Shown: piece after piece, positions 5,900 through 64,000 of the stretch
How positions within the stretch are numbered: the first letter of the stretch is position 1
Layout of the letters: each line of letters begins with the position of its first letter
Origin: a virus
Length of the DNA: 64,000 bases
Strand: one strand, 5' to 3'
Virus record (IMG/VR): IMGVR_UViG_3300043464_002317
Coordinates: 17,323-81,322 of that record
Notes under the pieces: generated by a model
The model's input: only the letters and a program-made list of their open reading frames with translations
The model's database searches: none
Told to the model about the DNA's origin: nothing
Translations under genes and position numbers: made by a program

Positions 5900-5946
5900 A
5901 AAGGAGGGGTTTCTGTAATAAAATTACAGACTCCTCCTTTTTTTTT
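5900..5946 (+). terminator. Rho-independent terminator after the capsid operon
   Basis: AAAGGAGG (5900-5907) pairs with CCTCCTTT (5933-5940). An inner CTGTAA/TTACAG helix (5913-5918 and 5924-5929) encloses a short loop, and a run of T continues to 5946. I see no new promoter before the next gene at 5960, so the fibre genes may be served by read-through. Confidence 0.88.
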
Positions 5947-5959
5947 AAAATGTACAGCT

Positions 5960-7063
5960 ATGGCTTGGAATGGTAATTTAAAAGATAATAAAAAAGTAAA
6001 AGATATACTTGGCGAAAAAATTTTTAACAAAGTTGTTAAAATTTTAGACGCTTGTTGTGGAGGAATCTCAAAAGATGGCAATCCAAATGCTTTTCTTAAT
6101 CAACAAGGGGAATGGGTAGAAGGAGGTGGAGGCTCTCAAGATTTACAACAAGTTACAGATGTAGGCAATACTACTGATAATGATATTCAATTTGATGTAG
6201 GAGTTGGGATACTATTAGATAATAGTTCAAGACTAAGAGAGGGGACAATTGATGCAGGTTTAGGAGGGAATAAAGGTATTGCACAAATTTGCGGTTTAGG
6301 TTATGAATTAAAATGGGAAGCAGGGTCATTGTATGTAATGAATGGTAGTGGTAATGGAATAAGACAATCATTATATAATTTTACTACAGTACCAACAATA
6401 ACAGATGATGATACAAAAGGATATACTGTAGGCTCATTATGGACTTTGGATAATAATGACACTTATGTATGTACTGACGCAAGTACAGGTGCTGCTGTTT
6501 GGGCATTAAAACCTAGTTCTGGATATATTTATGAAATAGGTCAATATGTTGCAGCAGAAGGCGGTGTAATTGCTCATAGATGGTTATCTGCATCATCACT
6601 TGGTTCACCTACTTCTGGCACTATTCAAAATTATTTGGTTGTAGATACAGCAAATTTATCAACATCAGCTTTATGGGCTAGTTCAAATGTGAATATATCT
6701 AATGTTGAAAGTACTTGGGATGGAACAACTAATACAGCAAATTTAATTGCTGCTGGAGCAGGTGGAGGTATAACAGCAGGTACAGCAGCAGTTTTATGTA
6801 ATAATAGCACAAACAATAGTAAATTAGATTGGTATCTTCCAGCTGTTGATGAGTTATCTAAAATATGGCAAAATAGATGGGATATATCACAAGGTATAAC
6901 TACTGCTAGTGGAACACAAATAGGATTTAACTTTTATTGGAGTAGTTCGGAGCTTGACACCACCTACGCTTGGGTTTTATCCTTCTACGATGGGGTTGCC
7001 TATGACGGCTTCAGTAAGAACGCCACCTACTATGTGCGTGCAGTAAGAAAATTCAGTATTTAA
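5960..7063 (+). CDS. Receptor-binding/fibre protein with C-type-lectin-like variable end (DGR target type)
   Basis: 367 residues. Residues 1-55 are the shared anchor (KVKDILGEKIFNKVVKILDACCGGIS, then FLNQQGEWVE) also found in the genes at 7088 and 7414. After a Gly-rich hinge comes a beta-rich middle. Residues about 190-367 form a DUF1566/C-type-lectin-like domain (WYLPAVDELSKIWQNR, YWSSSE, ending YYVRAVRKF). This is the fold used by diversity-generating retroelement targets, and the codons just before YVRAVR have the matching signature. The likely role is contact with a changing host receptor, with the N-terminus fixed to the virion. No reverse transcriptase is visible in this window, so active diversification is not shown. 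Confidence 0.75.
   Translation: MAWNGNLKDNKKVKDILGEKIFNKVVKILDACCGGISKDGNPNAFLNQQGEWVEGGGGSQDLQQVTDVGNTTDNDIQFDVGVGILLDNSSRLREGTIDAGLGGNKGIAQICGLGYELKWEAGSLYVMNGSGNGIRQSLYNFTTVPTITDDDTKGYTVGSLWTLDNNDTYVCTDASTGAAVWALKPSSGYIYEIGQYVAAEGGVIAHRWLSASSLGSPTSGTIQNYLVVDTANLSTSALWASSNVNISNVESTWDGTTNTANLIAAGAGGGITAGTAAVLCNNSTNNSKLDWYLPAVDELSKIWQNRWDISQGITTASGTQIGFNFYWSSSELDTTYAWVLSFYDGVAYDGFSKNATYYVRAVRKFSI
6935..7054 (+). other. Candidate DGR variable region (VR)
   Basis: Between the constant YWSSSE and YVRAVRKF codons lie 27 codons (6953-7033). Of these, 23 end in C or T and 15 in C, in a genome that otherwise favours A/T-ending codons. Reading the Y-ending codons as former AAC/AAT gives the Asn-rich template known from Bacteroidota DGRs, with fixed Ala-Trp, Gly and Lys codons in between. 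The higher GC content stands out from the flanks. No template repeat or reverse transcriptase was found in the window. Confidence 0.7.
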
Positions 7064-7087
7064 TATAAATTTTAAAAACCAAAAAAT

Positions 7088-7366
7088 ATGACAAACATAG
7101 AAAACTTAAAAGAAAACAGAAAAGTAAAAGATATTCTAGGCGAAAAAATCTTTAACAAAGTTGTAAAAATTTTAGATGCTTGCTGCGGTGGAATCTCAAA
7201 AAACGGAGATTCAGCAAAAGTCTTAACACAAACAGGAGAATTTCTTCCTACATCTGACGTATTATTTCTACTACCGTCATATGCTGACGATGTAGCAGCT
7301 GGCGCAGGTGGTTTAGTTGAAGGACAATTATATAGAACAGCGAGTGTAGTTAAAGTTAAGCTTTAA
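7088..7366 (+). CDS. Short fibre-anchor protein (adaptor or baseplate plug)
   Basis: 92 residues. Residues 1-40 repeat the anchor of the upstream gene almost word for word (RKVKDILGEKIFNKVVKILD, ACCGGISK). The end (YADDVAAGAGGLVEGQLYRT, then ASVVKVKL) is a tail motif seen at the C-terminus of many phage fibre or head-decoration proteins. It is therefore complete rather than a broken fibre: an anchor joined directly to a terminal cap. It may be a minor fibre, a competitor for attachment sites, or an adaptor. The leader is A-rich. Confidence 0.6.
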   Translation: MTNIENLKENRKVKDILGEKIFNKVVKILDACCGGISKNGDSAKVLTQTGEFLPTSDVLFLLPSYADDVAAGAGGLVEGQLYRTASVVKVKL

Positions 7367-7413: not shown

Positions 7414-9372
7414 ATGAGCCTCAATCAACAACAACCTGATAAGTTAAGATATTTTTTTGGGAATAACCTCTACTACAAGTTCAAAAAAGTTTTTGACGCT
7501 TGTTGTGGAGGTATCTCCTTTAAAGGAGATGAAAACAAATTTTTAAATCAACAAGGAGATTTTGTTGAAGCGACTGCCTCAGCTTCTATTGAAGACATTA
7601 CCTATTTAGAACTATACAATCTTACAATAAATGAAGAATTAACACCTCTTCAATGGTATAGACTTACAGATTATAAATCAGTAAATTTTCTTAATGGATG
7701 GCAAATAGCTAATGAAAATTCTAATTTTAACAACAATGCTCCAACCGACCCTAATTTTATTCCGAGAGAAGTTTATACAGGAGATACAGAAGTTCTTTTA
7801 CTTCAAGCAATTACAGAATCAGAAATTTCACCAATAGGTTATTCAGAAACTTATCCACAAGATATTATCCAGTATAATCCTTTGGTAAATAAAATTGGAG
7901 TTGGTTTGTATATAAATAATGGTGCTACATTACCTAATTTATCAGTAGTTTCAGGCTTTGACCTTCAATGGGATGGCACTAATGCTTATTTTGAAATGCC
8001 AATCGGTTATCCTGCTTTATTTGGACATTATTTTCGTATTTATTTTACTTTAGATAGTGGTAATGTTGTAAACGAGGGAGTATTTGAACCTTTAAATTCA
8101 GGAATAGCTACTTGTCAATTTCCCGAATCAACTGTAGTTACAAGAATTAAAGTAGAAAATGGAGGAACAAAAATTTTACTGTTAGATATAACCCAACAGG
8201 ATGTAAATGATTACGATATAAATACGCTTTTTGTTGAAACAGTAACAGCAATAGAAAACGCTTACGGTTGGATTGAAAGAAGACAAGATACAGAAAGAAA
8301 TATAGATGTTCCTTTCGACTTTAGAGGTAGAAAATATCGTAGATTTGAAATAGATATGTCACCTATACACCCTTCATTTGGAATAGTTTATGCAGGTATT
8401 GGTGATGATTATAAAAATTTAGGTACTACTGGAAATTATAAAGACTTTCCATGTTTTAGTGAAACTAACTCAACTTTCGATATTCAATGGAACGATATGG
8501 GGAGTCCTGACTCTTACTATTTTAGAGGGTTAAATGATAATAATGTATTTCAAGGTGTTTTTGTAGCTAATAATTTACAATGGACAGTGAGGGATAATAC
8601 AGGTATTGAAGAAATAACTTTAAATCGCATTGAAAATTTTTTTTCGTTGAATATAATAGTTTCTATGTCATCGAACAATATTAAAGATGGTTTTGAATCT
8701 AGTGTTATTGGCAATTATTTTTCCAACAATAACGTAAAAAGTGGTTTTTATAATAACGTAATAGTTAGAGATTTTTATAATAACAATATAGGGGTAAGCT
8801 TTTATGATAACATAACAAGTCAATATTTTATTAATAACACAGTAGGAGATGAGTTTGCTAATAACATTACAGGTGAATATTTTACCCAAAACACTATAGG
8901 AAATTATTTTCAAGACAACGAAATAGGTGATAACTTTCAAAGTAATAACATAGGTAATGTATTTGACAATAACAATACAGGTAATTACTTTGTTTACAAC
9001 AACATAGGTAATGATTTTAAAAACAACGAAATAGGTAATAGCTTCTTCAACAATAACACAGGTAATTACTTTGCTAACACCAATGTAGGTAATAGTTTTG
9101 GAAACAACTATATAGGTGAGAGCTTTCTTTCTAACAACATAGGTAATGACTTCTTAAACAACAATGTAGGTAATGACTTCTTAAACAACAATGTAGGTAA
9201 TGACTTTCGATTAAATACCACAAAAGCATTAGTAAACGGTATAAATTTTACATCTGCTACTCATGTTTATGGTAATTACAATTGTGAAATATTTAAAGCA
9301 AGTAATTCAATTCTATATTTAAGTTATTTTAATGGTACAGCAGTTGTATACCCAGCATCAATAAACTCATAA
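7414..9372 (+). CDS. Long tail/head fibre with shared anchor and C-terminal beta-helix
   Basis: 652 residues. Residues 25-55 carry the anchor motif (FDACCGGIS, FLNQQGDFVE). Residues about 65-420 resemble flavobacterial prophage fibre proteins (LQWYRLTDYKSVNFLNGWQI; YGWIERRQDTERN, DVPFDFRGRKYRRFE). From about residue 418 to 600 the chain is a run of ten-residue repeats of the type IGNxFxNNN, predicted to coil into a beta-helix with Phe and Ile/Val inside and Asn ladders outside. A short C-terminal cap follows (HVYGNYNCEIFKASN...). Role: elongated host-contact fibre. Trimerisation is likely but not visible. Confidence 0.65.
   Translation: MSLNQQQPDKLRYFFGNNLYYKFKKVFDACCGGISFKGDENKFLNQQGDFVEATASASIEDITYLELYNLTINEELTPLQWYRLTDYKSVNFLNGWQIANENSNFNNNAPTDPNFIPREVYTGDTEVLLLQAITESEISPIGYSETYPQDIIQYNPLVNKIGVGLYINNGATLPNLSVVSGFDLQWDGTNAYFEMPIGYPALFGHYFRIYFTLDSGNVVNEGVFEPLNSGIATCQFPESTVVTRIKVENGGTKILLLDITQQDVNDYDINTLFVETVTAIENAYGWIERRQDTERNIDVPFDFRGRKYRRFEIDMSPIHPSFGIVYAGIGDDYKNLGTTGNYKDFPCFSETNSTFDIQWNDMGSPDSYYFRGLNDNNVFQGVFVANNLQWTVRDNTGIEEITLNRIENFFSLNIIVSMSSNNIKDGFESSVIGNYFSNNNVKSGFYNNVIVRDFYNNNIGVSFYDNITSQYFINNTVGDEFANNITGEYFTQNTIGNYFQDNEIGDNFQSNNIGNVFDNNNTGNYFVYNNIGNDFKNNEIGNSFFNNNTGNYFANTNVGNSFGNNYIGESFLSNNIGNDFLNNNVGNDFLNNNVGNDFRLNTTKALVNGINFTSATHVYGNYNCEIFKASNSILYLSYFNGTAVVYPASINS
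8670..9210 (+). repeat. Coding 30-base repeats specifying a beta-helix
   Basis: About 18 in-frame repeats of roughly 30 bases, consensus protein IGNxFxNNN. Two adjacent units at 9141-9200 are identical at DNA level (GGTAATGACTTCTTAAACAA then CAATGTA), which points to recent duplication and gives a simple route to change fibre length. Confidence 0.8.
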
Positions 9373-62674: not shown

Positions 62675-64000
62675 TTAATGTGTTTGTGCCCAGTTTGCGC
62701 CTACTTGCCACTCAAAGCCAAGAGGAATATTTAATTTCATCAACTCGCATGTTTTTGCTATAGCTTTATTTATACTTTCTGATACTGGATTTGGTAAAGC
62801 TACATACCATTTTTTAACATGACTTAGTGGTGTTAATTGAGCTCCAGAGTAGTTTTTTATAAATTCTTTTCCTTCTTCTTCATTATCAAATACTTTGTAT
62901 TTAACAATTGTATTTTTTACAGCTAAGGCTACTTCATCGTGCATAGAAATCATTTCACAAGCATCAGGTTTTGCTATAAAAGGGTCTATTGTAAAACCAG
63001 CTTTTTCTATTTCGTTTAATAACAACACTGTAGTATACTTAGCGCAAATAGCTCCAGCAGACTGAAATAAACTATTTAATAGGCTATGAGGGCTTCTGGC
63101 AATAATTTTTCTACCATCAATACCTATGATAAACTCTCTATTATTATTTTCCCAAGTTTCTAAAACTTCTTCTTTTAAAGCTTTTAACGCTGGCATAGCC
63201 TCCCAAGCTTCTTCGTATATTCTTTTACCTTCCTCTAAAGATTCTCCAGTCATTTTGGCGATTTTTTTAGGTTGCGCTCCATAAATACAGTTTCCTGTAA
63301 TTCCTATAAAATTATCTTGCCATATAATAAAACTTGAATTTTTTGTAGTGAGACAAAAAGTATCTTGTATACCTAAAGTATCTTTTTTTATCTCTTGGCA
63401 AGTTAGATGTGATTTTTTCTTTTTTCTTATAGAAATACATTTATCACTCTTATTTGTGAATGAGAGTCTACCCGTACCTAACAGTTGCATAGCTGTTGCA
63501 ACACCATCAAAAATATTACCTTTATTTTGCGAAATAAGGTATTCTTTATTTTTTTGAAAAGACTTTACATTACCATCACCTAAAAAAAATCCATACATGA
63601 ATCTTTCTAAACTTTCCCTTTTTAAAGATATAACCCACTTAACCCAGTTTATATCATGCTTATCTTTTCTAATACCAACAACTCTATCTATAAATTTTCT
63701 TGCACACTCATTTGAAATAACATATATTACAACTGTATTACCATTATCGGGGGTTGGTCTGGGATATTTATAAAACGAAATATTAAGTTTATTTAACAAT
63801 TTTTCTATATGTTCTGTATAATAATTTATAGATTGTGTGATTAATACACGAACCTCTTTTTTTAAACCTTTTGAAGCTGAAGTATTCTCAGATTTTTTTG
63901 ACCAAGTAATACTTCCTTCTGATAAAATCCAACCGATAAGCTCCGATTCATCTGGAGTTATATCACTATCTCCTCCGATATATGGTGCGGATAGAAGTAT
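62675..64000 (-). CDS. polA: Family A DNA polymerase interrupted by an intein (C-terminal part, partial)
   Basis: The frame is open to the window edge; the TTG at 63799 is internal. Codons 63290-64000 are intein. Codons 62675-63289 are the last 204 polymerase residues, beginning CIYGAQPKKIAKMTG (end of motif B, the O-helix YGA) and including GIDGRKIIARSPHSLLNSLF, QSAGAICAK and SMHDEVALAV (motif C). The protein ends VGANWAQTH. After splicing it would be the phage replicative polymerase, sited next to the helicases as in crAss genomes. The upstream polymerase part and the intein N-terminus lie outside the window, so splicing competence cannot be judged fully. Confidence 0.87.
   Translation of the reverse strand: MLLSAPYIGGDSDITPDESELIGWILSEGSITWSKKSENTSASKGLKKEVRVLITQSINYYTEHIEKLLNKLNISFYKYPRPTPDNGNTVVIYVISNECARKFIDRVVGIRKDKHDINWVKWVISLKRESLERFMYGFFLGDGNVKSFQKNKEYLISQNKGNIFDGVATAMQLLGTGRLSFTNKSDKCISIRKKKKSHLTCQEIKKDTLGIQDTFCLTTKNSSFIIWQDNFIGITGNCIYGAQPKKIAKMTGESLEEGKRIYEEAWEAMPALKALKEEVLETWENNNREFIIGIDGRKIIARSPHSLLNSLFQSAGAICAKYTTVLLLNEIEKAGFTIDPFIAKPDACEMISMHDEVALAVKNTIVKYKVFDNEEEGKEFIKNYSGAQLTPLSHVKKWYVALPNPVSESINKAIAKTCELMKLNIPLGFEWQVGANWAQTH
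63290..64000 (-). mobile_element. Intein with LAGLIDADG homing endonuclease (partial)
   Basis: C-terminal splice blocks: DTFCLTTKNSSFIIWQDNFI then GITGN, followed by the extein Cys (codon 63287-63289). The terminal Asn is AAC at 63290-63292. Two LAGLIDADG-type motifs: SELIGWILSEGSI (about 63908-63946) and LERFMYGFFLGDGNV (about 63570-63615). The residue before the Asn is Gly rather than the usual His, a known variation. Confidence 0.82.

Follow-up and report, generated by a model that had tools for sequence, protein, structure and literature searches.

We analysed a 64,000-nucleotide stretch of viral DNA, called the window here, that covers bases 17323-81322 of the 81,322-bp virus record IMGVR_UViG_3300043464_002317. 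Downstream of the head and tail genes, it encodes a tail-fibre-type protein whose gene almost certainly ends in the variable repeat (VR) of a diversity-generating retroelement (DGR; Table 1). DGRs are usually found through their reverse transcriptase (RT), with a template repeat (TR) and a VR nearby. A preliminary description of the window, made from the letters alone, had proposed such a region at this place. It had also asked whether the rest of the genome supplies the RT and TR, or whether the region is a fossil or was acquired.

The proposal had been based on the codons between two fixed flanks, and our count gave the same figures. In the variable part, 23 of the 27 codons end in C or T and 15 in C, compared with 5% C-ending codons in the remainder of the open reading frame (ORF) and 9.9% record-wide. 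When every long reading frame of the record was scanned in 27-codon windows (23,254 in all), this block ranked top for C endings (naive binomial P = 5e-9 for at least 15 of 27 at the record rate). The flanking YWSSSE and YVRAVRKF codons (the latter at 7031-7054) were as described. The 18 nt of the fixed 5′ end are identical in the VRs of phage contigs L008 and L009 and in the VR and TR of bacterial contigs L012 and L014. AT-rich homologues that have no C-rich VR still keep the fixed 3′ end, which may act in the initiation of mutagenic homing (IMH).

Table 1. Features of the VR-bearing gene and its neighbours (window positions)
Feature	Position	Strand	Basis
VR-bearing tail-fibre-type protein, 367 aa	5960..7063	+	ORF; Lcl_C C-terminus; downstream of head/tail genes
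Lcl_C (PF07603) domain, residues 252-363	6713..7048	+	Pfam E = 2.4e-9, above curated cut-off
VR fixed 5′ end, TATTGGAGTAGTTCGGAG, YWSSSE codons	6935..6952	+	identical 18 nt elsewhere
VR variable part, 27 codons	6953..7033	+	rich in C at third positions; homologous columns hypervariable in 27 other VRs
VR fixed 3′ end, TATGTGCGTGCAGTAAGA, candidate IMH-side sequence	7031..7048	+	exact match in 8 IMG/VR contigs
92-aa paralogue sharing an N-terminal attachment-like segment	7088..7366	+	144-nt direct repeat
652-aa neighbour, related N-terminus, 27-nt repeats	7414..9372	+	translation; repeats at 8782-9210

The C-terminal third of the protein is an Lcl_C domain, in agreement with the C-type-lectin-like fold that had been proposed. 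An AlphaFold model of residues 158-367 had a mean pLDDT of 63.5 (moderate confidence) and was best in the domain core. Its sole significant Foldseek match to a solved structure was the C-terminal domain of Legionella Lcl (PDB 8q4e, E = 2.8e-4, probability 1.00). The best profile match of the protein was likewise PDB 8q4e (E = 1.8e-14), and a match to phrog_4245 spans residues 152-366. The Lcl_C and 8q4e matches place the VR in a display domain of the C-type-lectin-like or Ig-like type. Gene context and domain suggest that the protein binds a receptor. A DNA search of the phage collection with the gene found nothing, and at the protein level only a 60-residue segment of Rhizobium phage fibres matched. 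The whole-protein relatives L002-L007 were set aside, as they share residues 55-184 only and carry other domains at their ends.

The nucleotide frame of the window VR recurred in a further 43 IMG/VR records, which total 1.54 Mb; 17 are ≥30 kb long, and most are fragments. The pattern TGGAGTAGTNCGGAG-N15-GCNTGG returned 37 contigs, and an independent mid-VR pattern returned six further VR contigs and one chance match (L082). In all but one GC-rich phage, the fraction of C-ending codons was 0.56-0.70 within the VR, compared with 0.02-0.11 in the 100 codons upstream. The GC-rich phage, L051, has a different scaffold; it was counted among the VR records and left out of the column analysis. Two contigs with the 5′ frame in common, L010 and L011, were not used as VRs, as their mismatches to the two TRs first tested were not adenine-biased.

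Column analysis of 27 distinct phage VRs identified 11 variable codon columns. All 297 codons in these columns were NNC or NNT, and K, E, Q, M, W and stop were never encoded. The third base was almost fixed in each column and position-specific, whereas most first and second positions took all four bases, A being the most frequent overall. The other codons were nearly invariant, silent positions included. This is exactly the pattern that codons copied from AAC or AAT predict, and its recurrence across dozens of phage genes upholds the DGR-type variable region of the preliminary description. An ordinary hypervariable lectin tip, shaped by diversifying selection and locally odd codon use with no DGR, is scarcely credible, and for the phage group it is already refuted. 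AT-rich Lcl_C homologues without the C-rich block (L027, L028, L030, L033, L034) speak for it. However, protein selection would neither bar A- or G-ending codons at 297 of 297 sites nor hold silent positions identical between unrelated genes, and the TR of a bacterial DGR described below has AAY at just these codons. In L028, L030, L033 and L034, an identical AT-rich VR-equivalent region replaces the C-rich VR and the 3′ end is unchanged; these four show that the same kind of Lcl_C gene occurs with and without a templated VR.

Compared to the nearest TR, the bacterial TR L085, the window VR had mismatches at 22 of 41 TR adenines and at 11 of 64 other positions (P = 1.1e-4), and 3-4 of the 11 third positions set it apart from the other phage VRs. 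We also observed that TTATCCTTCTACGATGGG is common to the window VR (6977-6994) and the VR L036/L046 of different phages, which perhaps reflects a second template variant. Because the third-position differences from the group are few and TTATCCTTCTACGATGGG is shared, a related template is expected for the window VR.

We compared variable and fixed VR positions between phage genes of known upstream similarity. Gene pairs with about 89-97% identical upstream DNA differed at 8-17 of 22 variable positions and at 0-3 of 36 fixed positions. When genes were binned by upstream identity, from <50% to >88%, the median stayed at ~14 of 22 variable-site and 1-2 of 36 fixed-site differences; even with flanks <50% identical, only about 2 of 36 fixed sites differed. 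Because the divergence was constant across flank identities, VR sequence is decoupled from gene descent. Replacement from a shared template is expected to produce such decoupling, and neither a fossil nor ordinary selection would. Judged from these comparisons, the phage VRs without an RT undergo recent and recurrent replacement from such a template. The preliminary description had expected excess variation at these codons among relatives, and we found it saturated there. Hypervariation among close relatives was observed in the pairs of phage relatives; the window gene itself is without a close relative.

These comparisons also bear on a fossil, in which the lineage once had a DGR of its own, the TR and RT were lost and the VR no longer changes. 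Crass-like VRs without a TR or with broken RTs have been read as decayed cassettes (PMC7290462, PMC11054128), and one VR in our set is common to several clonal contigs. However, close RT-less pairs carry VRs whose differences all fall on template adenines and leave the fixed sites untouched, and the frame and 3′ end of the window VR are still intact. We therefore regard a fossil as improbable. This option of the preliminary description is disfavoured for the group, where near-identical genes carry different VRs, and the evidence points to supply in trans.

We searched the 81.3-kb record, which is incomplete, for the other DGR components, and found no RT with PF00078 (RVT_1) or a DGR-trained RT profile and no TR in an adenine-tolerant repeat scan of the VR. 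The absence of both from the window, as first reported, also applies to the remaining 17.3 kb of the record, and the window VR is flanked by >23 kb upstream and 57 kb downstream that are free of RT and TR. As controls, the same RT search recovered the RTs of the crAss-like phage csAssE-Sib and of L014, and the same scan recovered a known bacterial TR with zero mismatches outside adenines. None of the 43 further VR records (1.54 Mb) contained an RT. The patterns would also catch a TR of this frame, yet each match to the two VR patterns was a VR, the one chance match aside. Searches of the phage and plasmid collections with a consensus TR that we inferred returned nothing. In contrast, when an AAC-rich TR pattern of this broad type was used to select viral loci, 57 of the 59 had an RT in the examined stretch. 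This contrast (0 of 42 VR-pattern records vs 57 of 59 TR-pattern loci, the latter chosen by their TR and so not an unbiased rate) shows that the method detects cis DGRs.

Three of the VR records are terminally redundant: G051 (120,123 bp; 123/123 bp), G027 (61,130 bp; 239/240 bp) and G045 (296,330 bp; 173/174 bp). Across its full sequence, each of the three holds a single VR and lacks both a TR and an RT. Of these, G051 belongs with the crAss-like relatives of the window phage: its portal, capsid and other virion genes are similar, and over 183 aa its VR protein is 47% identical to that of the window.

The best matches of the window phage's portal, large terminase (TerL) and virion proteins were to the crAss-like phages Cellulophaga phi17:2, phi4:1 and csAssE-Sib; together with gene order and PHROG matches, this relatedness identifies the phage as a member of the Crassvirales. 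Because these nearest named phages have genomes of 145-151 kb, the record is likely a fragment with a little over half of one crAss-like genome. The match of a DNA polymerase ORF near the record end (62675-63799) is limited to the C-terminal part of the family, which points to a truncated record. Of the named relatives, csAssE-Sib (epsilon crAss-like, OR575929; portal 31% identical over 99%, large virion protein 33% over 79%) has a tail-fibre gene that ends in a VR of lectin-type fold (PMC11054128). Its VR, TR and GxxxSP RT are adjacent in one cassette, whereas the window record has the VR only, in an Lcl_C domain.

An ordinary cis DGR, with the TR and RT far from the VR in the unsequenced part of the phage genome, would agree with this incompleteness and with the cis DGRs known in crAss-like phages, csAssE-Sib included. 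It would also agree with the partial departure of the window VR from the shared frame, by which the template found is not its own. We consider it unlikely, because the RT- and TR-free DNA on both sides of the window VR far exceeds the csAssE-Sib spacing (TR and RT within about 700 nt of the VR), the complete relative G051 carries a homologous VR gene with neither component, and the IMG/VR pattern searches gave no TR of this frame. The preliminary suggestion that the rest of the phage genome supplies the RT and TR fails for the three terminally redundant relatives and is possible for this fragment.

We observed the exact frame in genome contigs of six Bacteroidota. One of them, L014 (a Flavobacteriales metagenome-assembled genome (MAG), CANCQX010000084), carries a complete DGR that consists of an Lcl_C target, bAvd, a TR and an RT with GNLTSQ and YVDD motifs. 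Its VR and TR differ at 18 of 42 adenines and at 0 of 69 other positions. At non-A positions, the L014 TR matched the phage VRs of L008 at 63 of 64, L009 at 61 of 64 and L081 at 59 of 64, so that differences were confined to TR adenines in L014 itself and nearly so in these three phages. Compared to the shared phage frame, the L014 TR had 4 of 46 non-A mismatches; the best viral TR compared had 10 of 46. In the family of this MAG, TR or VR sequences of this kind occurred in 13 of 240 genomes. That a bacterium holds a complete DGR whose TR has the same frame further supports the proposed DGR-type region.

The L014 DGR resembles the window VR in its frame (TATTGGAGTAGTTCGGAG...GCTTGG) and Lcl_C target. 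Unlike the window VR, it lies with bAvd, TR and RT on a chromosomal-looking contig, and its target resembles a secreted cell protein. Because the surrounding genes look cellular, a chromosomal DGR is the natural reading, although a contig from a draft MAG is no proof of it. Two other bacterial contigs, L072 (G332:C25) and L073 (G269:C9), carry VRs of the phage-type frame (TACGGAG...GCGTGG) with no exact-frame TR in the same draft genome. The Flavobacteriales MAG of L014 also holds a second TR, of another frame (GGAGTTCTACGGAG), beside an RT match (L016, G013:C16).

Host genes of this kind could also have donated ready-made VRs to phages by homologous recombination with diversified Lcl_C genes, in place of retrohoming. 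Donor DNA exists, as host Lcl_C proteins carry same-frame VRs, and exchange over short identical ends is plausible. However, such exchange would have to end at the VR edges each time despite unrelated flanks, and each variant would need a host VR donor, while retrohoming gives the boundary naturally. Recombination is thus possible and less economical, and we consider it very unlikely.

Overall, we suggest that the orphan phage VR is probably diversified in trans, with the chromosomal DGR of a Bacteroidota host as the most probable source. Supply in trans is strongly supported at the level of the group, and by extension the window phage would use a host DGR as well. In the proposed mechanism, the Lcl_C domain would display about 20 residues from AAC/AAT-copied codons within an invariant scaffold and may bind a host receptor. 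The phage gene would be a target only, and the template RNA, RT and accessory protein would come from the host DGR. The host would express the TR RNA, RT and bAvd. On infection, adenine-mutagenised cDNA from the host template would replace the homologous VR segment of the phage, with the fixed frame and the conserved 3′ end TATGTGCGTGC as its guides. The outcome would be phage progeny with differing binding tips. Action of the host machine on phage DNA is the step that this model presumes; DGR action on reporters in E. coli has been described (PMC12875486).

Several points weigh against supply by the host. No TR that exactly templates the window VR was found; the nearest, a bacterial one, leaves 11 of 64 non-A positions mismatched. 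The third-position departures of the window VR (3-4 of 11) point the same way. The record is a fragment, as the 145-151 kb genomes of its relatives indicate, and the missing part may hold a cis DGR, such as csAssE-Sib has beside its VR. In addition, most VR records are fragments and the MAGs are drafts, and the Flavobacteriales family is only a putative source of hosts for the phages.

Previous studies provide both parallels and differences. VRs were reported in 80 of 89 crAss-like genomes and TRs in 30 (PMC7290462). In the same study, crAssphage LMMB and partial cassettes in alpha crAss-like phages had VRs without a TR or intact RT, as here; its authors described incomplete or damaged cassettes, whereas the RT-less VRs studied here keep diversifying, with one frame across unrelated phages. 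The Bordetella phage BPP-1 (Mtd), when deleted for avd, TR and brt, was diversified by plasmid copies (PMC3240598). Its VR was likewise served from elsewhere in the cell; that arrangement was engineered, and the one here is apparently natural. VRs remote from the RT cassette are known in nanoarchaea and gut prophages (PMC4372165, PMC12629997), where the RT is in the same genome, whereas here it is apparently in another replicon, the host. A large metagenomic DGR survey states that remote targets would escape detection (PMC8144416). Our searches of the open-access literature returned no account of a host DGR that naturally diversifies phage VRs.

The genes next to the VR-bearing gene resemble it at their 5′ ends. 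An N-terminal segment (KIFDACCGGIS-like) is common to the three consecutive genes that start at 5960, 7088 and 7414, and a 144-nt direct repeat (5942-6085 and 7070-7213) is 77% identical between the first two. The shared segment suggests duplicated fibre attachment modules. In conjunction with the location among virion genes, it suggests that the three genes encode a family of tail-fibre-type proteins. The 652-aa gene contains at least 11 27-nt repeats (NNxGNxF-type, 8740-9210), which probably form a repeat-built fibre shaft. Elsewhere in the record, upstream of the window, the large terminase (1,080 aa, L001:10470-13712) is seemingly split by an intein-like insert at residues about 280-640, with a segment that matches a helicase-annotated PHROG family and an end at ...GIVTHN. 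A scan with the 310-aa protein at 2043-2975 returned no relatives, and the window had no Rfam matches.

On balance, we lean towards a host-chromosome DGR that serves many unrelated phages of the same bacteria as a common diversification engine. These phages would carry just a docking VR in an Lcl_C tip protein and exploit the template, RT and bAvd of the host to randomise it, so that the host's mutator is used against the host itself. If this is true, one class of hypervariable phage proteins has so far been overlooked or written off as decay, and a bacterial diversification system becomes a tool of its phages. One template could then drive concerted evolution across unrelated replicons.
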